This document shows, in pieces, positions 51,048-64,000 of a stretch of 64,000 nucleotides of DNA. The notes beneath the pieces were generated by a model. It searched no databases, was not told the DNA's origin, and was given only the letters and a program-made list of their open reading frames with translations. The translations under genes and the position numbers were made by a program. Each line of letters opens with the position of its first letter. Positions within the stretch are counted from its first letter, which is position 1. Source of the DNA: Chrysophaeum taylorii. Taxonomy: Eukaryota; Sar; Pelagophyceae; Pelagomonadales; Pelagomonadaceae. The DNA is taken from assembly GCA_029834535.1 (NCBI GenBank), contig JAQMWT010000157.1, forward strand, positions 124,001 through 188,000, in the 5' to 3' direction.

Positions 51048-51419
51048 TCGAGCGACCCCACGTCATACGGCATAGCTCCAACATCCTCTTTTAGGTAGGT
51101 AGCCTCAGCTTTCTTTCTCGAAGGGGACGAACGGGCCCACCATATCGATCGACGAAAGATTACCACGGTGCCATTGAAGACGACGACGACGACGACGGGC
51201 TCCTGGATCCGTGCATGTAGCGTATCGTGAGACGAGAGATGTAGGGAGAGGACGGCACCTGTTCGAAACCAACTTGGGTTATATACTAGCTATAATATCA
51301 AAGAGGGTCTCTGAAATGAAATGAAATGAAATGAAATGAAATGAAATGAAATGAAATGAAATGAAATGAAATGAAATGAAATGAAATGAAATGAAATGAA
51401 ATGAAATCCTCCTCCTCAT

Positions 51420-51665: not shown

Positions 51666-53327
51666 TTAGACGAGGAAGAGGGAGACGGCGAGGGCCGCGG
51701 AAGAGGCGACGAGGGCGACGAGGTCGCGGGTTGGGCCGTCGGGCTTGTCGGCGGCGTCGAGGGCATCGGGTAAAAGCTCGGAAAAGGCAATCCAGAGCAT
51801 CATGGCTGCTGCAAAGCCAACAAAGAGACCCGATAGGTCGGCGAATATACCGGCCGAGGCCGAAGCGATGATGGCGCCGATGGTCTGGGGTGCCGCCGCG
51901 GCGTAGGCGCAAAGGGCGGCAAAGGCGGGGGAGCGGCCGCGACCGACGAGGACGGTTGCCGTCGCGAGGCCCTCGGGCACATTGTGGACAAGTATCGAGA
52001 GCGCGGCCGCGCGGCCTCTCGCGTAGGAGTGCGCGTATGCCGCGCCGAGGGCGAGCCCCTCTGCGGTCGAGTGGCTCGCGAGCGCGACGGCGAGCGCGGA
52101 GACGGGCGAGGCGCCATTATTCACCTCGTGGTTTTTTTGGTCGTCGTCGTCGGAGGCGAAGAATACGCGGGCGATGGCCGAGGCGAGGCCGAGGAGAAAG
52201 CCAAAGCCAGCGAGGCTGCGTCCATCGCGGACGGCGTCAGCGGCGAGCGCGAGGCTGATGGAGGCGACGGCACCGCCCGCGAAGGCGTTGGAGAGACCCA
52301 CGAAGCCGTTCGGAAGCTCTTTTCGACCCGAAAGGTAGAAGGTCGGGAGGGCGCCGACGACGGCAAAGAGCGAGGCGACGCCCGTCTCCAACGCGACGAC
52401 CGAGACCGACGATTCCGACGACGCGGGTTCCGAGAGGACGAAGGGTCTGCCCGTCGCGGCGAGGTCGTGCCAACCTTCGAAGTCCTCGAAAATCCTGCCG
52501 ACCGAAAATGCGGCGATCGCTGCCGCGCCGCCGTTGACGACCATGCCGACCGCCGACTCGAGGATAGGCTGGTTGGTGAGGCGGGCCTTCGCCGCGCCCA
52601 GCGCGAGGAGGGTCGTCGTCGTGACCACGCAGCTCGCCGTAAACATGAGCTCGGGAAGCGGCCGTCGCGAGAGGGTTACCGTCGCGTAGTAAGCGGCGAG
52701 CGGCGTCGCGCCAAACGCGACGAAGGCCCCCGCCGTTGTCGCCCCCTTCTTTGCCGCCATCCACACCGCTCCCCCCGACACCGCCGACGTCGGACACCGC
52801 CAGTTCCCCGGCGCGAGCAGCTCGAGCCGCATGAGCATCGAGTGCGCGACGAAGACGTCGTCGACCGTCGCCACCGCCTCGACTGCCGCTTGCGCCGCGG
52901 CGGGTTCGAGCCCCGCGCGCACGTACGACGCCTCGAGCTGCCGTTTTTTCCATTCCCGCGTCTGGCGGAGCTCGACAATTTCGCGACGGTATTCGCCCTC
53001 GACGTACTCGTCTTCCGCTCTTTCGCTAAGAAAGTCGCCGATTCCCATCGACAGCGCGTCCGCGATCAGGTTCGCCACCCCCATCAGGAGCACGAGCCCG
53101 GCGTGCGCGCGCGCCCCCGCGACCGTCGCCACGATCGCGAACGTCGTGATGATCCCGTCGAGCCCGCCGAACACCAACGACTTGACGAGAGCACCGCCCT
53201 CCTCGGCCTCGTTTCGACTCGATTCGGGAACCTTTTTTGTCCCGCCGGTCATATTCGCCTTGCAAATCCCACGATTTCGACCACCACCAACTTCGAGGTC
53301 ACTGTACCCAACGAGTCCAATGCTCAT
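51666..53327 (-). CDS. VIT/CCC1-ZIP fusion metal transporter
   Basis: One uninterrupted 553-aa frame joins two metal-transporter families. Residues about 48-290 are a vacuolar iron transporter domain: LVFGGLDGIITTFAIVATV, ANLIADALSMGIGDFLSERA, the Glu/Arg-rich cytosolic metal-binding helix (YVEGEYRREIVELRQTREWK), and LESAVGMVVNGGAAAIAAFS. Residues about 315-553 are a ZIP domain: ASLFAVVGALPTFYLSG, SNAFAGGAVASISLALA, a His/Asp-containing loop, ASHSTAEGLALGAAYA (HxxxEG, His about 419) and LVHNVPEGLATATVLVG (HNxPEG, His about 448). VIT proteins load Fe2+/Mn2+ into vacuoles and ZIP proteins move Zn2+/Fe2+ into the cytosol, so the two halves would normally work in opposite directions. No stop, intron or frame change separates them. 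Confidence 0.88.
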   Translation of the reverse strand: MSIGLVGYSDLEVGGGRNRGICKANMTGGTKKVPESSRNEAEEGGALVKSLVFGGLDGIITTFAIVATVAGARAHAGLVLLMGVANLIADALSMGIGDFLSERAEDEYVEGEYRREIVELRQTREWKKRQLEASYVRAGLEPAAAQAAVEAVATVDDVFVAHSMLMRLELLAPGNWRCPTSAVSGGAVWMAAKKGATTAGAFVAFGATPLAAYYATVTLSRRPLPELMFTASCVVTTTTLLALGAAKARLTNQPILESAVGMVVNGGAAAIAAFSVGRIFEDFEGWHDLAATGRPFVLSEPASSESSVSVVALETGVASLFAVVGALPTFYLSGRKELPNGFVGLSNAFAGGAVASISLALAADAVRDGRSLAGFGFLLGLASAIARVFFASDDDDQKNHEVNNGASPVSALAVALASHSTAEGLALGAAYAHSYARGRAAALSILVHNVPEGLATATVLVGRGRSPAFAALCAYAAAAPQTIGAIIASASAGIFADLSGLFVGFAAAMMLWIAFSELLPDALDAADKPDGPTRDLVALVASSAALAVSLFLV

Positions 53328-53918: not shown

Positions 53919-56900
53919 TTAGGTCTTCTGGTAAGAAACGAGTCGCATCGCGAGGAGCGCGAGGACGTGGAAGACACTGACTTGGAGGACGAAGACGGCG
54001 AAAACGCGGTACTTATTGGCGCCGTTGAAATTCCAATACTTGAGCCAGTATTCGGCACCTGAACCGGAGGGGGTGGGGCAACGAGCACAAAAGACGAGTC
54101 GTACCTGCTCCGTCGTCGTCGTCGTCGATACCGTCGAACTCGTTGAGGATTAGGGCTTCGAACGACCACCTCGCGAAGGAGAATTTTGGGGCCCAGGACC
54201 AGTAAGTCGGGACTTGGTCGATCGGGATCGCGTAGCCACAGAAGAACATAGAAAACTGGAATAAAGCCGAGTAGAGGTTGAGCGCCGACTGCTGATTGGG
54301 CGTGATGGCGGCGATAAAGTTCGAAAACGAATAGCCAGCGAGACTGAGGCCGAACATAACCATGTAAAAAAAGACGAAGTGAAGGGAGAAGAGGCCCCCG
54401 CGCATGTTGACCATGGGGTAGGTGATGACGCAGTACACCAACACGAGAGGAATCTGGACGATGGCGTTGAGCGCGCATCGTGCAGCGAGGTACGGTAAGA
54501 CGGTGTAGAAACCGGCCGAGACCTCGCGGTACAGCAGCGGTCGTTCGGTGAACATCGTCGGGATGGCTTGGAGGTTGGACATCGTGATGAACTGCTGGGA
54601 AAAGTAGTTGACAGAGGCGAGAGAGTGCATGTTGGTTTGGTCGTCGTAGACGACGCCGTACCAGACGGCGACGCAGATGTTGCGCAGGAGCGCAATGAAG
54701 ATGGCCTGGCGCGAGTGAGAGAGGACGAGCAAGTTTCTTAGCAGGTGGACGCGAAAGTGGTAGAATTGGCGCAGAAGCCCGCCGCCGCCAAACACGCTCT
54801 CGCACGAGGTATCCTCGTCGTCGCCGCCGCCAAAGCAGCCGGTGGCGCCCCCGAGCGGACGGTCGAGGTCGAACCCGTCCGCGACAGGCTCGAGCAACCC
54901 ATCTTGCCTTTCGATGACGTCGCGTTTCGAACGCCCGGCAGCCGCGGCGGCGTCGAGGAGCCACTCGGCAGCGTTGCGCGTCGTTTGCCCCGCGCGCTCC
55001 GGCATCTCTTGCATCATGCGCGCCGCCGCCTCGGCGGGCGTGCCGCTAAACACCGCCCGACCGTCGCCGATAACGAGCACCTTGGGAAAGAGGCGAAAAA
55101 TTGGCTCGCTGGGCTGGTGGATCGTACAGACGAGGGTCGCCCGGCGCTCGACGAGCCGCATCATCGCCCGCACGAAGTCGAGGCTCATCTTCGAGTCGAG
55201 GCCGCTGGTTGGTTCGTCGAGATACATGACCGACGGGAGGTGGACCATCTCGACGGCGGCGGCGCACAGGCGACGCTCGCCGGTCGCGAGCCCGCGGACG
55301 AGCGTCGCGGCGCAGCCGTCGAGGCCGAGCATGGCGATGACGCCCGACGCGCGTTCGGCGACGCGCGCGGACGCGGGGGCGTCGAGGCGCAACATGCTCG
55401 CGATGCGGACCGTCTCGGCGACCGTCAAGTTGGGGATGAGTACGTCGTGCTGCATGACGTAGCACTGCAGCTTGTGGCGCTGGAGGCGCGTCGGCGTCGC
55501 GCCGTTGTACGCGACCGAGCCGCGGCCAAAGCCCGTCGTCTTGCGACCGCTGATCACGTCGAGGAATGTCGACTTGCCCGCGCCTGCACGCGATAATCAA
55601 GCGAGGGAGAACACAACATCATCAACGTACCGGACGGACCCATGACGGCGAGGAGCTCGCCCGGGGCGACGGTCGCGCCGACGCCAAAGAGCAACGGCTT
55701 GACGGTCTTCTCGCCGTTGGCGTCGACGACTCGCACCGAGTACCAGAGTGGATGGACGTCGACGCGGACCTCCTCGAAAAGCTTGTCGTCCGATTTGTTG
55801 AATTCCACGGCGTCGGACGCGATGGCGATGGCGACCGAGGCGGCCTTGCCGACGGTTTCGGCAAAGTCGGGCGCCATCTTCTCGAGATCGTGGCTGGTGG
55901 AAGCGAATCGGAGCTTCGGGCGAGTTCCGCGGAGCGGCGGATAGGTGACGAAGCGGATGATGAATATAAACAGGATGATCGGCATCAACAGGAACCAGAG
56001 CGACGAGGTCGTGGGGTACCCGAACTCGGAGAGGACGTCGTGGCGCGAGAGCGTTCCCCACCCGGCGTGGAAGAAGCCGACGACGATGGCCTCGTAGGCC
56101 CAGCGCGTGAACGAGACGAACATCAGCCAGTAGGCGGGGTTGGTGTGCGAGATGACGGGGAGCTTGATGGGGTACCCCGAGGTCTGGGCCCAGATGTAGA
56201 CGCCCGGCTGCCACACCGACATGGCGACCTGCGGGGACGAGGTCCACGCCGCGAGCATCTGCGCCCACGCGAAGCCGACCAGATTGGTGAATTGCGTGAC
56301 CAGGAGGTACCAGGCCCATACCCACAAGGTCCCCTGCACCTTGGCGCCGCCGACGCTGAAAAAGACGAGGGTCGAGAAGAGGACGTTGACGAAAATAAGC
56401 CACGGGACTTGCGCGACGCTCGCGACAAACCAGTAAACGAACGGAGAGTAGGCGCCGTTGGCGCGCTCGTGCTCGAATAGCGCGCGTTCGTCGAAGAGCG
56501 TCACGATGCCGCGGAGATTACCAAGGATGCCGAACATGAGGGCAAAGTAGAAACACGATTCGAGGTTGGCGGCGCCCTCCGCGTTCTTTGGTTGATCCTT
56601 GAACGTGGTCGAGTACAAGAAGCCGATCCACGCCATCTTGAACAGCGACGTCAGCCAGATGGACCTCGAGCGCGCGAATTGCGTCACTGAACGCCACAGC
56701 AACGCCCGCACTTGGCGAATGGCGTCGGCGTGGGAAACCTCGGGATCGGGCGGCCGGGGGCCCGGCGCGCCCTGGGCGGTCGCGACGGCCCGAAGCGAGG
56801 CTTGGCCGGCGTTACTCTTCGCGAACGCGGCCGCGAGGCGTCGCGAGGCGCCGGGTGCCGACGCGACCGCGAGCACCGCGTCGGCGGGATTCGACACGAG

Positions 56901-57683
56901 ACCTCCGTCGTCGGCATCGACCACCGTCGGCACGACGCCGCGCAAATGCGCAATTACGTCGGCGGCCGGGCCGGCCCAAGCGACGCGGCCGGCCGTCGTG
57001 ACGAGCAACAGCTTGTCGCACCGCGCGAAGACGTCGGCCGAGGGCGTGTGGAGCGTCGCGACAACCGTCCGTCCCTGATTGTGCGCGACTGAATCGTGCA
57101 CGTGCCGCATGACGTCGAGCGCCGTGGTCGAATCGAGGCCGGTCGTAGGCTCGTTGAGGAGAACGAGCCGCGGCTGAGCCACGAGCCCGAGCGCGATAGC
57201 GAGACGCTTCTTCTCGCCCCCCGAAATACCGCGGATCGTCTCCGAGCCTATCCGGACGTGCGCGCACTTGCGAAGCCCCAGAAGGTCGATCGTCTCGTCG
57301 ACGAGCGCCTCCGACGCGTTCCGCAGCCGCGCGCTCACCGCGACGATCTCTCGCACCGTGAGCGCCGAGACGCAGCTGAAGTGGTTCTCGCGAGACACGA
57401 GCGTCGCGACGTGGCGCGTCCGCGCCGTCGCCGCGTACCCGTCGTACGTGATGCGCCCGCTCATCCACCCCTCGCTCCGCTGCACCGCGAGCAGCTCCAT
57501 CAAGCTGGTCATCCACGGCCCGCTCCGCCCCATGCAGCCCCAGACCTCGCCGGGCCGCGCGACGAGGTTGATGCCGCACAGCTCAATGTGCCACGCCTTG
57601 CGCACGCTGCGCGCGTACCACAAGTCCTCGACGCACACCACGGCCCCATTCTTCGACCCCGCCAGCAGAGGCTTTGCCTCCAT
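53919..57683 (-). CDS. Full-size ABCG (PDR-type) transporter with asymmetric ATP sites
   Basis: Three exons, 57683-55631, 55583-54105 and 54058-53919, sum to 3672 nt (1223 aa); the first intron splits the second Walker A. The order is NBD-TMD-NBD-TMD. NBD1 has an intact signature (GISGGEKKRLAIALGL) and H-loop (ATLHTPS). Its Walker A reads GRSGPWMTS, with Met58 in place of Lys, and its Walker B reads LVLLNEPTTGLDS with Asn177 for Asp. NBD2 has an intact Walker A (GPSGAGKST), Walker B (VMYLDEPTSGLDS) and H-loop (CTIHQPS), but the signature is LATGE. One composite ATP site is therefore degenerate and the other canonical. Each TMD has about six helices, ending in a short LVSYQKT tail. It is probably an exporter of lipids or hydrophobic compounds; membrane unknown. 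Confidence 0.9.
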
Positions 57684-57765
57684 AATAATATACTCGGGAC
57701 GTGCGTTTGCGAATATTGTGGGCCACGTCGAAGTGCAACATCCATCCATTCTGCGAGATAGATAG
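57684..57765. promoter_or_regulatory. 82-bp divergent intergenic region (ABCG / TPR protein)
   Basis: Only 82 bp separate the ABCG and TPR start codons. ATAATAATATAC at 57683-57694 is the sole AT-rich element. A shared promoter is likely. Confidence 0.4.
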
Positions 57766-58830
57766 ATGATGCGCGCGGTGTCGTTGTTGTTGCGTCGTCG
57801 GGGCGCAACACCGACGGTCGTCCGGGTCGCGTCGCGGGGCTACGTCGCGCCAAAAGACGGGTTCGATGCCGCCGAGACGGAGAAGGCGATCGGTGCTCTC
57901 CAGCGACTTCTGCGGAACGAGCTGTCTGAGCAAAGTTTCGACGACGCTCTCAACACGGCCGAGGAGCTGCGGTCGCTCGCCAGGGACGCCTACGGGTCGA
58001 CCGGCAACACGATTCTCGCGGCTGCGCTCAACGACTCGGCCCTCGTCCACAAGGGCCGCCGCGAGTTCGAGACGGCCGTCGAGCTGCTCGTCGAAGTGAG
58101 AAACTGAAAGCGTCAAAAAAAATTCTTCCACGACGCGACCGCAGGCGGTGCGGCAGTACGACTCGTGCGGGCTCCGGAACCACCCGTCCTCGGCGACGGC
58201 GCTCCACAACATGGGCGTCGCCTACAAAGAGCACGCACAAGCCCCCGAGACTGGCGCGCTCGAGCGCGTCTCGCTCCTCGACCGCGCCGCCGAGTGCCTG
58301 GTCGAGGCGAACGAGCGCCGGGCGGCGCGAACCGACGACGACACCATACGACGTGCGCTCTTGTGTTTTTCTTTCGCGCCTCCCACCACGACCGCGCAGG
58401 CGCCGTCGCGACCACGCGCGTCGTGCTCGCCTCGGTCCGCCGGCTCCAGAAGCGGATCGCCGACGCGAGGGACGAGATCGACGAAGCGCTCGCTGTGCTC
58501 CGCGTTGTCGACACGACGATCGCCTCGCGCACCGCGCTGGCCACGGCCCTGAACAACGCCGCCTATTTTGAAAAGCAAGACGGCAACGACGCGGACGCGT
58601 CCAAACTCTACCACGAGGCTCTCGACCTCCGAGAAACCGTGCTCGGCCCGGAACACCCGCAAACGATCGCGACCCTCCACAACATCGCCGAGCTACACGA
58701 GGCCTTCGGAAGGCTCGACCAAGCCAACGCGGTCCGTCGCAATATTCTCCGTAGACTCGGCGTCGAAGGAGACGACCGCGACGACGCAACCACCACCACA
58801 CCGCCGGCGATCCCCACGCCCCAAGGCTGA
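57766..58830 (+). CDS. TPR-repeat protein, possible mitochondrial (TTC19/KLC-like)
   Basis: Exons 57766-58095, 58145-58352 and 58400-58830 sum to 969 nt (322 aa), introns 47-49 nt. The N-terminus RAVSLLLRRRGATPTVVRVA has Arg and no acidic residues, as in mitochondrial presequences. TPR units follow: ALNDSALVHKGRREFETAVE, SATALHNMGVAYKEHAQ, TALATALNNAAYFEKQDGND and TIATLHNIAELHEAFGRLDQ. The LGPEHPQT element between units is typical of kinesin-light-chain-type TPRs. Mitochondrial TTC19, a complex III assembly factor, has similar spacing, but this is only a suggestion. Confidence 0.78.
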
Positions 58831-59009: not shown

Positions 59010-60187
59010 TCAAAGCAGCAGAGATACGTCGTGATGATGATCGGCCACGTCAATTTCCTGGTCCGTAGAAGACGCGCAGCGCGTAAAAACAACGAAGTCG
59101 GCGAGGTTTGCCAGGCTACGATCGTGTCGGAGATCGTGCCATCCCCTCTTCGCTTGGTCGCGGAAGGTGGCCTCGGTCAGCGGGATGCACACGAGAATGC
59201 GGAACTCGTCGCGTTCGAGATCGACGTCGGAGAAGGCGGCGTCGGTGTCGAGCATGTGTTCGACTTGGTCGCAGACACCTGTTGAAGAAGAATAAGAAGC
59301 AACGCGCGATGCATGGCTGATCTGATCTGATCTGACTCGCGCGCGGGTAACATACATAAATAAAGGCGGAAATCGCTCGCTCGCTCGCTCGCTCGCTCAC
59401 CTAGATAATACTCGACGTGGAAGCGGCCCAAGACGAGCATGATGGCCTCGGCGGGGTGGGCTCTGAGGTGGTCGAGGGCGGCGTAGGCCATGGCCGTGTC
59501 CCAGAGACATTGGGCTGCGACGAGGCGACTGCGGCGCTCTTCCGAACCCGTCGGCCAGACGTCTCTGAGGCGCTCGTGGTAGGCGCGGGTGATGGGGGTC
59601 GCGGCGTAGACGCGGAGGGGGGGCAGGAGCGCGAGGTCGTCGGGCGGGAGGGAGTCGAGAGCGGCGGCGCCGTTTCGCGAGACGGTCGAGACGAGCCGGC
59701 GCGGGGCGTTCGCGGCAACAATCGCGTTGCGCGACGCCTTGGCGAGACAGACGAGCGGGCCGTATCTCGTAGCATCTTCCCTGATCCGAAAGAGCTCGGC
59801 GACGTCGGCCAGCTCGTCGCTGACGAAATCGCGCACCGCGTCTCGCTTGTCGGTTTCGATGGACTCGAGGCCGAGAGCGACGCGGCGCCCGCGACAGGTC
59901 ATGCGCTCGTACAAGACGCGCTCGAGCTCCTGCGCGGCCTGGTCGGTGTGGGTTTCGCCGAAGAGGACGAGCCTTAGCCTGGGACTCGCCACCTCGTCGA
60001 GGAGCTCTTCGAGGCTTATGTGCACGAGCGGGCGGTTGGTGTGCTGGCGCTCGAGAATGCACAAGTTCTCGGCGAGAAGCGTCCCTCGACGTTCTTCTTC
60101 TTTTTGTTTTTGTTTGCGTCGGTCGCAGTGCACCACCAGTCCCACGACCGAGGTCGTCTGCCCGAAAACGAGCGCGCGCCGCCACAT
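59010..60187 (-). CDS. ChaN/DUF399-like haem-binding uptake family protein
   Basis: Two exons, 60187-59401 and 59278-59010, sum to 1056 nt (351 aa). The family signature is clear: LRLVLFGETHTDQAAQELER (about residues 71-90), VALGLESIE, AQCLWDTAMAYAALDHLRA, and VLGRFHVEYYLGVCDQVEHM across the intron. ChaN in bacteria is an iron-regulated lipoprotein that binds haem, and the fold relates to the Tiki/TraB peptidase group. In algae and plants homologues are often plastid-located, but the N-terminus here gives no clear target peptide. The 122-nt intron contains a CGCT tetranucleotide run and GATCT repeats. Function in this organism is unknown. Confidence 0.8.
59375..59400. repeat. (CGCT)n run at splice donor
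   Basis: Five to six CGCT units lie directly inside the ChaN-like intron, and the last unit forms the donor GTGAGCGAGC on the minus strand. Confidence 0.85.
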
Positions 60188-62031
60188 CACAGGATGAGGG
60201 GGATCTCGATCCACCACTCCATCAACGCAGGCGCCTTCTTCTGATGGCCTGCACTATTATACATCATCAACGTACCTGTAAAGATGACACGAGCAAGATT
60301 ATGCGCGCCCCGTGTCTTCGCGGCGCACCTGCTCTCAGACGCGTTCGTCTCGGCGGTTTCCACGCTCCGACGCAGTCGCAGGCGGCGGCGCGTCGGGCCC
60401 CTAACGGCGAGGACCGGCGATGGCGGCACGCGGGCGATTTTCTGGCCGAAACGTGGTTGCGGGCGTGCGACGCCGAGGACGTCCTCCCCGTCGATGGCAA
60501 CAACACGGTGCGGACGCCACGAAGCCAGCCAAGCGCGGCGGCGAGATGACGCAGTCGAGCACCCGGAATAACGCGGACGAGCGTCCGACCGACGTGCCGA
60601 ACCGCGAGCAGCTCGGCGCTCACAAAAAAAAAACCTCGTTTGGGCGACCCGCTCGAGTTGTCGCCAGTGTCGTCGAATCCCGATGGAACCGTAGCCTTCG
60701 AACGGACGCCGAGCCTCGAGGATCCGCTTTTCTCCAGGTTGGAGGCGCTTCGCTTCGAGGCAATTGTTGACGTTTTTACGAGGCAATTGTTGACGTTTTT
60801 ACGAGGCAATTGTTGACGTTTTTACTCGTCGCCTGCTCTCGACGCGGAAGCGCGCCGCGACATCCTCGCCGCGCTCTAGGGCCACGCGACAGCCCGCGGG
60901 GCTCGCGAGGAGGACCAAAAGCACAAAGTTGGCCTCCTCGTAGATCGCGACATGGCCCGGGCGGTCGCCGACGCCGCCGAGAAGGCGAGCAACGAGGCGA
61001 GCGATCGTCGTGATCGTTGAGGTCGCCATGAAATACCACACGTCGGCAACTCGAGACGAACTCGTCAAACGACGACCGCTTGACGACCGACCCCAGACGA
61101 CGAGCGCCTCGTCGTCAGTCGAGGACGAGCCCTCGGTCGAAGACAGCTTCGACGACGACCTCCCCCGACCGGCCGCAGGGTATCGAGGTACCGACTGTAG
61201 TCCGCGCGACTTGTTTGTCTGCGGACTATCTCTGTCCGCCGCCAAGTCAAGCCGCCGCTCGAATCGCGCCTCGAACGCGCGCTCGTGTAACGCGCAGCTT
61301 CGGAGTGCCCAACCTGATTCAACAAACCCCACAATGCTCTAACCCGACGTCGATTCTGGCGTCCGTTAGTCTCTATTGCGCGAATAAAATTAGTGGGAAT
61401 GAATGTGTCTTCCTTTTTTTTTTTGCTGCGATATCCGAGCCTCACTTGGACTAAGCGGCGCGCGCCCTCCCGAGACTCGGCGAGGTAGGAAGAAAGAAGA
61501 TTTCTTGCGTCTGCCGCCCGCGCCTCTTGATGCGGAGGGCGATTTCTGCGCCGAGCCGCACGGCGAGCGTGATATCAGCATCCTTTGAAAATAGCGTCCT
61601 TGGTGCGTCCTCCGACGCATCCAAGCACCTAACGCTCCTGGCAGTCGTCCACAAATCGCTGCAGATAGCGTACCACGCCTTACTATAACGTCCCACTTCC
61701 GATTGCGCACCACGAGTGACACCATCCACAGTTTTTCTTATTATTGTTATCGGGAGCGAGGCGAACCCCACATTTCTACTCTCGACGAGCGTCCTTCCTA
61801 GGTCGGTATTTTCACGGGGGGGGACGCAGGATAAAATGGTGCCGTGACGAGGGATATTCGCTGCTCCACATCATCATCATCATCATCAACATCAACATCA
61901 TTGGAGTCAAAATGGTGGCCGACGCCACACGCAGAGCTGAGGCGGCGGCGGCGGCGGCGGCGGCGGTGCTCTTCTCGCCGAAGACGCTAGGATTCAAAAT
62001 TCACAGCTTGGATTCAAGAGTCATAGCGATG
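60188..62031. other. Region with unassigned minus-strand coding-like sequence
   Basis: About 1.8 kb. Minus-strand frames at 61332-60830 (ARLVARLLGGVGDRPGHVAI, EANFVLLVLLASPAGCRVAL) and 61771-61451 (SKAWYAICSDLWTTARSVRC, DADITLAVRLGAEIALRIKR) have a real-protein look. A further frame (60786-60187, VVAIDGEDVLGVARPQPRFG) ends next to the ChaN-like start. I could not join them into one convincing gene or recognise a domain. ATC (61869-61890) and GGC (61934-61966) runs lie near 61.9 kb. Confidence 0.4.
60756..60828. repeat. 23-bp tandem repeat, three units
   Basis: Three perfect head-to-tail copies of a 23-bp unit beginning GAGGCAATTGTTGACGTTTT. Read on the minus strand each unit contains GTAAAAACG, a possible splice donor. 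Confidence 0.95.
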
Positions 62032-62889
62032 TTATTGTAGGCGGAGGTCCTTAAGAAGGTCGACGGGGTCCATGCCCTGCTGCCGGATCTCAAAAAACGT
62101 TGGCATGAAATGGTCCTCGAGAGGATGACCGAGGTTGATTTGGATGCCTCCGACCAAGACGAGCTTCCCGTTCCCAAACTTCGTGTGGACGACTTCTTCG
62201 ATGCTAGCCTTGATGATGTCGAAGGCGGTCATGGCGAGCTTGGCGTTGGTGTTTCGAGCCGTGACGACCTCGTCGACCCGAGGTGCGATCTGGTCGCGAA
62301 GCCAGCTCTGCTGGACGTCGTGGGCGTCGAAGAACGACGGGCCGTGCTTGCCCTCGCAGCATTGTTGAAAGGCCGCGCTGACTGCCCCGCAGGCCGTTGA
62401 TTCGTGCCTCTGGCCATCGCGGTGATATTTGCCGATCTCGCCCGCGTTTGATATGCCGACGTGCGGCCCGAAGAACACAACAACGTGACCGCCGTCGGGA
62501 ACGTGATGAGAGAAGGCGTGGAAGCCCGTCCTGCCCACGAACGGCGCTCCCCCAATCCCGCCCATCGTAAACACCTGACCAAAGTACGCGCGCAACTGGT
62601 CCGCCATGTCGCCGGCTTCGTTGTTTATCTCGTCGGAGCAGATCGACGTCCCCAGGATCGAGTTTCCAGGGACCACGCCGTGGGAGCGCAAAACCGACGC
62701 CAGCCGGGCCGTCAGCGCCGACCCAGGGACAGCTCCTGGGAAGTGCGTCTCGAGAGCTCTCGCAACCGGCGAATCTTTTTGCGGAGACCACCCGAGCCAC
62801 TCAAACGCAGCTTTCATTTCTGGGGCGGCGAGTGGCGGCGAGAGCCCGACGGAAACGCGCTTGCGTCCTTTACCTCGTCCCTTCCCCAT
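62032..62889 (-). CDS. LCIB: LCIB-family theta-type carbonic anhydrase
   Basis: The 285-aa intronless product matches the low-CO2-inducible protein B family. Conserved blocks are ICSDEINNEAGDMADQL (Cys84 and Asp86), FTMGGIGGAPFVGRTGF, FHAFSHHVPDGGHVVVFFGP (His128/129), HVGISNAGEIGKYHRDGQ, ESTACGAVSAAF (Cys167) and KLVLVGGIQINLG. By analogy with solved LCIB proteins, the two Cys and one His would bind Zn2+. The family interconverts CO2 and bicarbonate, or serves CO2 recapture, in algal carbon-concentrating mechanisms. The N-terminus is a basic MGKGRGKGRKR stretch without a signal or plastid transit motif, so a cytosolic location is suggested. It supports a photosynthetic origin for the window. 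Confidence 0.9.
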   Translation of the reverse strand: MGKGRGKGRKRVSVGLSPPLAAPEMKAAFEWLGWSPQKDSPVARALETHFPGAVPGSALTARLASVLRSHGVVPGNSILGTSICSDEINNEAGDMADQLRAYFGQVFTMGGIGGAPFVGRTGFHAFSHHVPDGGHVVVFFGPHVGISNAGEIGKYHRDGQRHESTACGAVSAAFQQCCEGKHGPSFFDAHDVQQSWLRDQIAPRVDEVVTARNTNAKLAMTAFDIIKASIEEVVHTKFGNGKLVLVGGIQINLGHPLEDHFMPTFFEIRQQGMDPVDLLKDLRLQ

Positions 62890-64000
62890 GAGCGGCTGCA
62901 GCTATCAACTTTTAATGTCAGAGTGTGGCCGACGTGGTGTTTTCGTGCCACGTTTCGAAGAAGACTGTGCGGGATGTGACACGTACTACTTCAAGCCTGG
63001 CTTACGTCATGTTTCCGTAAATAGTGTGGCGCGTTTCGCCCTGTGCCCCCCACGCCGCGGCGGCGGTGGGATGCTCGCGATACGCCATGATATGGTACGA
63101 CTACGGATTGCCAATTAAAAAGCACGTACCCCGCCGGGTTTCTATCGTTCGTGTGCAACGTGTGTTAAGTTTGATGTATGCAATCCACGACGCCGAATGC
63201 AGGTTGTGGTGAGCACGTAATGCGCGGCATTTTTGACGTCGATCTCAGCGCACATTCTCAAAGCAGGCTCCGTTGTCACTCGCCCAAACCTACAGATTCG
63301 ACAATCTTGCGGGGCAATTGCTCGCAGCACAACAACGCGCTCGTAGGACTAAGCAGCAAATGTCGCACCACGCGCGCCCAGCCAACATTCGTTTCCTAGC
63401 GATGCTCTTCCGCCCTGCGTACTCTTTTTGAGTCGCCTATTTTTCATCCACCTTTTTTTCCTCCGCACATCTTCTCCTGACTGTCCTTTTGTTCTTTTTA
63501 TCTCTCCGAATTTCCTCCTGGGCACTACTTCCTCTCATTCTTAACTTTCCACGCCCCCTCCACTTTCCGCTTTCTTCCTATTTCTTCGCCACGGCATTTT
63601 CTTTTTCTTATTGTCAGTCTTATTTTCTGCGCCCTCCCATTCTTGCTCTTGGAGCCTGGGAGTTGCGTCAGTAAGGATTATAGCTTTTGGGGCCACCCAC
63701 AAGTCTCCGTCAGCACCTGAACTTATTCGTGTTACGGTTAGCACTCCCAGGCTCAAAGAGCCAGAAAGGATGATCGCTCAAAGGAAGAGGAACACAAAGA
63801 GTTAAAGACGACCGTAGAGAGCGGCGATGATGGAAAAAGCAAAAAAGGCAAAGCAGACGGGAGAAGGCAGGGGGAGGCGGGAGAAGGCAGGGAGAGGCGG
63901 AGCAGAGAGAAGCGTGTTGAGAACAGCAAAGAACAAGAAGTAAGGGGAGGGTGTGGACTTGGTGGTCGAGAAGAGAGAGGCTGGGACTTGGTTTAGAGGC
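62890..64000. other. Intergenic, right edge, with pyrimidine/purine asymmetry
   Basis: About 1.1 kb without a recognised gene. From 63420 to 63660 the plus strand is strongly pyrimidine-rich and from 63760 to 64000 strongly purine-rich. Between them a 12-bp inverted repeat is found (GAGCCTGGGAGT at 63652-63663, ACTCCCAGGCTC at 63743-63754). Confidence 0.55.
63652..63754. repeat. 12-bp inverted repeat with 79-bp loop
   Basis: The perfect 12-bp arms GAGCCTGGGAGT and ACTCCCAGGCTC are flanked by the pyrimidine-rich and purine-rich tracts, so a larger fold-back is possible. Confidence 0.7.

Follow-up and report, generated by a model that had tools for sequence, protein, structure and literature searches.

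The loading of iron and manganese into stores and the release of these metals are usually carried out by separate proteins. VIT transporters consist of five helices and a cytosolic metal-binding domain, and the VIT1/CCC1 family includes plant VIT1, EgVIT1, yeast CCC1 and PfVIT; the structure of EgVIT1 was reportedly determined by Kato et al. in 2019. A source available in part describes EgVIT1 E32 as the residue that is said to hand metal from the metal-binding domain to the membrane part. According to the accessible part of PMC10794610, the ligands of the metal-binding domain are E102, E105, E113, E116, M149, M150 and E153, and mutation of any of these Glu/Met residues abolishes the rescue of yeast ccc1. 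For PfVIT, the accessible part of PMC8247066 reports that Ala is tolerated at the equivalents of EgVIT1 E102, E105, E113 and E116; that M161A and E165A, at the equivalents of EgVIT1 M149 and E153, are loss-of-function mutations; that none of Leu, Cys and Glu can substitute for M161; and that Gln at E113, E116 or E127 (the last being the equivalent of EgVIT1 E116) severely impairs rescue. The VTLs have no metal-binding domain, and MtVTL4 and MtVTL8 nonetheless rescue yeast ccc1 (PMC10794610, accessible part). In MtVTL8, as far as the available text goes, a TMH2 Glu is required and, in a model, pairs with an H1 Lys, although this Lys is dispensable in planta.

On the ZIP side, H177, E181, Q207 and E211 of BbZIP coordinate zinc (PMC9278863) and N178, D208 and E240, together with M99, are further residues of the binuclear centre (PMC9873690), both sources being available in part. 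The same part of PMC9278863 states that eight-TM ZIPs have both ends outside and that an extra helix ahead of TM1 places the N-terminus of BbZIP in the cytosol. Among the matches listed, no description of a single-chain VIT-ZIP protein was found in the open-access literature, and the accessible parts of PMC7966952, PMC4460010 and PMC7676907 mention no such protein. This agrees with the initial annotation of the locus described below, to which no well-described protein of this build was known; the VIT-ZIP single chain is apparently undescribed, in the sense of not found rather than proved new.

We analysed a gene of the alga Chrysophaeum taylorii that lies in a window of 64,000 nucleotides (contig JAQMWT010000157.1, positions 124,001 to 188,000), the whole stretch of DNA to which the following coordinates refer:

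51666..53327, minus strand: VIT-ZIP fusion gene, 553 codons plus stop, with no internal stop
53250..53252, minus strand: second in-frame ATG (M26), a possible true start
52494..53186, minus strand: VIT1/CCC1 domain, residues 48-278, covering the whole Pfam profile
52773..53027, minus strand: VIT cytosolic metal-binding domain, about residues 101-185
52407..52484, minus strand: linker, residues 282-307, with 5 acidic residues and 1 basic residue
51672..52406, minus strand: ZIP half, residues 308-552, with eight predicted helices
52056..52073, minus strand: metal motif HSTAEG of ZIP helix 4, residues 419-424; H419 and E423 correspond to BbZIP H177 and E181, and S420 stands for N178
51969..51986, minus strand: metal motif HNVPEG of ZIP helix 5, residues 448-453; H448 and E452 correspond to BbZIP Q207 and E211, and N449 stands for D208
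51873..51890, minus strand: PQTIGA of ZIP helix 6; Q481 stands for BbZIP E240

The frame runs from an ATG at 53325-53327 to a stop at 51666-51668 and encodes a product of 553 aa. The initial annotation had reported one uninterrupted frame at 51666..53327, and the frame is indeed present at these coordinates, to which the minus strand, unstated there, has to be added; the Pfam search for VIT1 and Zip that it had proposed rejected neither half, both domains passing the curated cut-offs within the single frame. No in-frame ATG occurs at residues 262-509, and hence none at the VIT/ZIP junction, which leaves the ZIP half without a separate start codon in this frame. In blocks of 50 codons, third-position GC is 0.74-0.94 from residue 51 to the end, with no break at the junction. 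It is only 0.56 over residues 1-50, and because of this lower value M26 may be the true start of the protein. On these sequence data, the single polypeptide almost certainly represents a genuine fusion between a member of the VIT1/CCC1 family and a ZIP transporter. A chance or misread frame was also considered and is ruled out by the domain scores and the codon make-up.

The surroundings of the gene hold several other features. A perfect array of 19 TGAAA repeats (51312-51407) lies about 260 bases downstream of the fusion stop. Upstream, on the same strand, are two adjacent frames (54016-57839, minus strand), each with ABC_tran and ABC2_membrane domains and ABCG-like by eye, and about 6 kb from the fusion is a frame with a ChaN/Tiki haem-binding domain (59180-60253, minus strand; E 3.2e-35), a possible link to iron. 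A frame for an LCIB/C-type beta carbonic anhydrase (62035-62901, minus strand; E 2.9e-62) was also found.

The VIT half matched Pfam VIT1 from end to end (E 1.4e-44; 152.9 bits against a cut-off of 28.1; profile positions 1-214 of 214), and its nearest solved structure by sequence, over residues 44-280, was EgVIT1 6iu3. An AlphaFold2 model containing this half, built from an alignment with 34 prokaryotic VITs, had block means of 86-97 over residues 41-280, except for 61 and 72 at residues 171-190, and Foldseek matched it to 6iu3 with a TM-score of 0.88 by target. The isolated metal-binding domain 6iu5 was matched as well, with a probability of 0.97 but an E-value of 6.0, and helices 124-137, 142-152 and 156-168 of this domain were modelled at high confidence. 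Relative to EgVIT1 and to the three solo VITs encoded in the same genome, the half carries an insert before the third helix.

The translocation residues D43 and M80 of EgVIT1 are kept as D57 and M94. Only three of the seven metal-binding ligands are kept (E116, E119 and M164 for EgVIT1 E102, E105 and M150); EgVIT1 E113, E116, M149 and E153 are replaced by K127, Q130, S163 and R167, and the fusion thereby has Ser, Arg and Gln at the equivalents of PfVIT M161, E165 and E127. In a 46-row alignment, this count is below that of 42 of the 45 other rows and is undercut only by L052, L075 and L038, while each of the three solo VITs of C. taylorii has six of the seven ligands and four bacterial VITs of the type found beside ZIP genes (pair-type VITs) have all seven. 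At the position of EgVIT1 E32, the fusion has Ala, whereas the three solo VITs have Glu. The position of EgVIT1 E72 is occupied by N86; because Glu was found there only in EgVIT1 among the 46 rows, its absence is nothing special to the fusion.

Taken with the model, these residues suggest that the cytosolic fold of the VIT half is there and that its route of metal capture is eroded. The initial annotation had described a complete VIT with its cytosolic metal-binding helix, which is borne out by the whole profile and the modelled fold but is overstated with four of the seven ligands changed. With the VIT1/CCC1 family, the half shares the whole Pfam profile, the predicted EgVIT1-like fold with its cytosolic helical domain, and the D43 and M80 equivalents, whereas the replaced ligands, the insert and the C-terminal ZIP set the fusion apart. 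It differs from Group I plant-type VITs with a full metal-binding domain in having three rather than seven ligands and Asn rather than Glu at the E72 position, and from the VTLs in keeping a three-helix metal-binding domain in the model in place of a short loop. By analogy, Lys127 and Arg167 beside Glu116 and Glu119 could form an arrangement possibly like the Glu-Lys pair of MtVTL8.

The ZIP half matched Pfam Zip at residues 409-525 (E 6.2e-13; 49.1 bits against a cut-off of 35.1), a partial match to profile positions 178-298 of 323 that leaves the first three ZIP helices outside. These helices are nevertheless supported, because bacterial ZIP matches span the half (residues 301-549 in G455 and 299-530 in G611) and the model has eight helices. 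The nearest solved structures by sequence, over about residues 377-522, were BbZIP entries. A model of the half from a 7-row alignment with six relatives showed eight helices (mean pLDDT 76.7, pTM 0.75), and all nine PDB matches with E up to 0.001 were BbZIP entries with TM-scores by target of 0.52-0.67, the best being 5tsa at 0.67. The initial annotation had named an HxxxEG and an HNxPEG motif, which were found as HSTAEG and HNVPEG in a half whose Pfam Zip match is above the cut-off. In the alignment to BbZIP, the M1 site is intact in a His/Glu form (H419, E423, H448 and E452), and the M2 site is lost, BbZIP N178, D208 and E240 being replaced by S420, N449 and Q481. The half therefore shares with the ZIP/SLC39 family the eight predicted helices, the BbZIP fold, HxxxEG, HNxPEG and an intact M1 site, but not these three residues of the BbZIP binuclear centre. 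It aligned over its full length with bacterial ZIPs having HSxxEG, HNxPEGLA and PQ, and with this HSxxEG/PQ subfamily (as in L119) it has GALP, HSxxEG, HNxPEGLA and PQ in common, the PQ of helix 6 occurring in all seven aligned bacterial subfamily rows. Compared with the ZIP/SLC39 family at large, it is distinguished by a TM3-TM4 loop with DDDD and a single His, and by its position behind a VIT.

Known VIT and ZIP topologies lead us to expect the linker on the lumenal side. Given these topologies, the fifth VIT helix can replace the extra helix of BbZIP, leaving both halves in their usual orientation. By the same analogy, the VIT half of such a protein would move metal from the cytosol to the lumen and the ZIP half from the lumen to the cytosol.

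We also searched the C. taylorii genome (70.8 Mb, 697 contigs) for further VIT and ZIP genes. It contains three solo VIT genes, which share 42-43% identity with the VIT half in the matched stretches, as well as a divergent partial VIT frame. Zip was matched ten times; among these matches are the fusion itself, a gene represented by two pieces, and a match below the cut-off (L023). No other ZIP frame joined to a VIT was seen: the five VIT matches are at other places, and the ZIP frames run through Pfam held Zip alone. The genome contains no close second copy of the ZIP half, the other ZIP matches being 29-32% identical to it. The contig with the solo VIT of L004 also carries, at a distance of about 1.5 kb, a short VIT-like frame of 115 aa (L007 1444-1788, minus strand), a copy that is either broken or split into exons. 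Contig C671 holds two similar ZIP genes (L020 and L021), about 6 kb from each other, with long His/Asp/Glu repeats ahead of their Zip domains. The light-harvesting family had at least 84 matches in the genome, which together with the carbonic anhydrase frame of the window mark it as algal, and equal-score clusters of these on contigs C88, C539, C533 and C390 are probably tandem copies.

Among the matches listed for prokaryotic sets of 10, 299 (queried with the ZIP half), 296, 92, 247, 195 and 128 genomes, the last overlapping the 296- and 92-genome sets, no single-chain VIT-ZIP protein was found; a fusion, if present, should rank near the top of such lists, which is an argument and not a count. 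The long frames run through Pfam held one domain or the other, namely Zip without VIT1 in L089 and L117 of the 299-genome set and VIT1 without Zip in L189 and L190 of the 247-genome set. In L189 and L190, VIT1 occupies the C-terminal end of frames of 574-706 aa, and the roughly 350-420 preceding residues match no Pfam family. Scans of viral and genome contigs with the single protein yielded no relative, nor did a scan of viral contigs with a VIT alignment, and no relative was found in phages. Plasmids gave 241 matching records, none covering 80% of the query, and the best 20 of the 241 all fell in the VIT half. The VIT-alignment scan of genome contigs yielded 55 prokaryotic VIT loci matching the VIT half only; a ZIP-like frame of at least 80 aa stood beside the VIT, within up to 3 kb a side, in none of the 55.

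Gene neighbours of the two families were observed in three genomes of one bacterial family (G594, G607 and G615), where VIT and ZIP lie side by side on one strand and all six frames are above the Pfam cut-offs. The VIT gene of G594 ends 24 bases ahead of the ZIP gene, and 47 bases separate the VIT stop of G607 from the first ATG in its ZIP frame; G615 has the ZIP first and the VIT second, with 177 bases to the first start codon. Within the order of G594, nine of 128 genomes had a VIT match, with an adjoining ZIP in three of the nine. The three pair loci also carry frames like phosphoglucomutase and dipeptidyl peptidase IV. Eleven further genomes with both of these neighbour frames at the locus have a ZIP without a VIT, and G645 has a VIT, without a ZIP in its 4.1-kb contig, beside phosphoglucomutase-like and dipeptidyl-peptidase-like frames (L171 2175-2945, plus strand); this place can thus be taken by either gene alone or by the two together. 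Being related to one another, the three pairs are best counted as one or two events rather than three. They resemble the fusion in that a VIT adjoins, on the same strand, a ZIP of the subfamily nearest to the ZIP half, the VIT being first in two of the three, but they encode two separate proteins, their VITs belong to another clade with all seven ligands, and the order is reversed in G615.

A different neighbourhood was found in G889, from another phylum, where at L196 3218-5334 (minus strand) a ZIP lies directly ahead of, and overlaps, a frame with Pfam Rubrerythrin and VIT1, which we take to be an example of an MbfA-type protein. MbfA-type proteins (ferritin-like/rubrerythrin plus VIT) share with the fusion a VIT joined to a second metal-handling domain; their partner, however, is a soluble N-terminal domain and not a second transporter, and the ZIP of L196 is an unfused neighbour gene. 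No ferritin-like domain was matched by Pfam in the fusion up to E 1. In the phylum of G007, three loci (L197, L198 and L200) contain tandem ZIP-ZIP genes, one a ZIP of the HSxxEG/PQ subfamily and the second a divergent ZIP.

With regard to the origin of the halves, the VIT half formed one clade with the three solo VITs of C. taylorii, with support of 100/99, in a 26-row tree, from which L013 (a partial VIT frame with a very long branch) and ten other rows of the first tree had been left out. In that larger first tree (36 rows), the same four rows were together with support of only 92/0. Grouping the VIT half with the four pair-type VITs in one clade was rejected (p-AU 0.0005). The VIT half is the longest branch of the 26-row tree (1.94). 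In a 41-row tree, the ZIP half was sister to 20 bacterial HSxxEG-type rows (support 92/90, not starred), with a long branch of 4.43 and a flagged odd letter make-up. By sequence, the bacterial HSxxEG subfamily is its nearest group among the relatives searched, and 'bacterial-like' is limited to these, eukaryotic ZIP relatives lying outside the search. The trees make it more likely that a resident VIT was joined to a ZIP of a bacterial-like subfamily than that a bacterial pair was acquired whole. A history in which a VIT-ZIP gene pair was transferred from bacteria and fused afterwards is unsupported, given that the VIT half clades with the VITs of its own genome and not with the pair type, although this rejection is not final because the fusion is long-branched and support in the first tree was 92/0. 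The VIT-ZIP pairing looks to have arisen more than once, because the VIT of the alga does not group with those of the bacterial pairs.

As the best reading of its function, we tentatively propose a two-way carrier on one internal membrane. Both halves would lie in the same membrane, most likely that of the vacuole or another acidic store, in their native orientation, with a cytosolic N-terminus, five VIT helices, an acidic lumenal linker and eight ZIP helices with both ends lumenal. A divalent metal, Fe2+ or Mn2+, would be loaded into the store against protons by the VIT half, which, like the VTL branch, would manage without the customary capture site in the cytosol. The ZIP half would return a divalent metal from the store via its M1 site, and as parts of one chain the two would be equal in number and share one location. 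If both moved one metal without regulation, they would run a futile cycle; the halves would therefore have to carry different metals or act under different conditions, and this change may lie in the metal-binding domain of the VIT half, which is eroded, and in the M2 site that the ZIP half has lost. Of the functions suggested in the initial annotation, a bifunctional store-and-release carrier fits best, since both membrane cores keep key residues and both halves have their usual orientation, but its lead is only narrow; the idea that the VIT metal sensor regulates the ZIP loses ground, as the sensor keeps three of its seven ligands. Weighing against a two-way carrier are the ligand loss read with the EgVIT1 and PfVIT mutants, the change of E32 to Ala, the long branches of both halves and the rarity of the VIT-ZIP gene neighbourhood (0 of 55 other prokaryotic VIT loci).

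Close to this reading, and also held with some doubt, is one in which the ZIP half is a working transporter and the VIT half, as a scaffold, targeting or dimerisation module, loads no metal. The VIT half has three ligands where the three solo VITs, which are available for loading, have six; two of its changes are to Lys and Arg, the positions of M161 and E165, essential in PfVIT according to the accessible text, are among those altered, the E32 equivalent is lost, and its branch of 1.94 is long. Yet D57 and M94 of the translocation path are kept together with E116 and E119, and the fold is well predicted; moreover, losing ligands does not in itself imply that transport is lost, because VTLs without the whole domain still rescue yeast ccc1 in the accessible account.

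It is rather improbable that both halves transport while mechanically or allosterically coupled in a shared dimer, such that exchange or switching between load and release is obligatory. EgVIT1 and ZIPs are both dimers, according to the accessible parts of PMC10794610 and PMC9278863, and the linker is short (26 residues), but no sequence feature shows coupling, and the relative placing of the halves is not confident, the ZIP half being mostly at pLDDT < 70 in the full-length model. No better are the chances that the halves carry different cargo, with iron or manganese for the VIT half, zinc or another metal for the ZIP half, and joint placing as the only link between them; S420, N449 and Q481 in place of BbZIP N178, D208 and E240 and the changed VIT capture site would suit this, although no residue predicts the cargo with confidence. 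An artefact, whether an assembly error joining two genes or two transcripts from one open stretch, is very improbable, and a misjoin in the assembly unlikely on the sequence: the third-position GC of the first 50 codons is unlike the rest, but the join is in frame at a domain boundary, the VIT profile is complete, the ZIP is matched from its first helix (residues 301-549 and 299-530), a separate ZIP would find no ATG in this frame, the codon make-up is even across the join, and nowhere else in the genome is there a close copy of the ZIP half.

Two known transporter families are genuinely joined in this protein, an unusual fusion that keeps the membrane cores of both but has an eroded cytosolic metal site in its VIT half. 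A bolder proposal, which we consider unlikely, is that the dimeric polypeptide is a two-way metal valve, with a VIT loader driven by protons and a ZIP elevator for release that share a membrane and are under reciprocal control, and that this design, reached by fusion in the alga and by neighbouring genes in some bacteria, makes the VIT-ZIP pair a recurrent one in metal storage. If both functions reside in one chain, the steps of loading and release can be locked in number and place, and the fusion offers a direct test of coupling between opposite transporters on one store. The bacterial VIT-ZIP gene pairs provide a simple second system for the same question. If the VIT half is instead a dead scaffold, a transporter would have been turned into a carrier for another transporter. 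The fusion is a defined target in algae, whose metal storage is much discussed.
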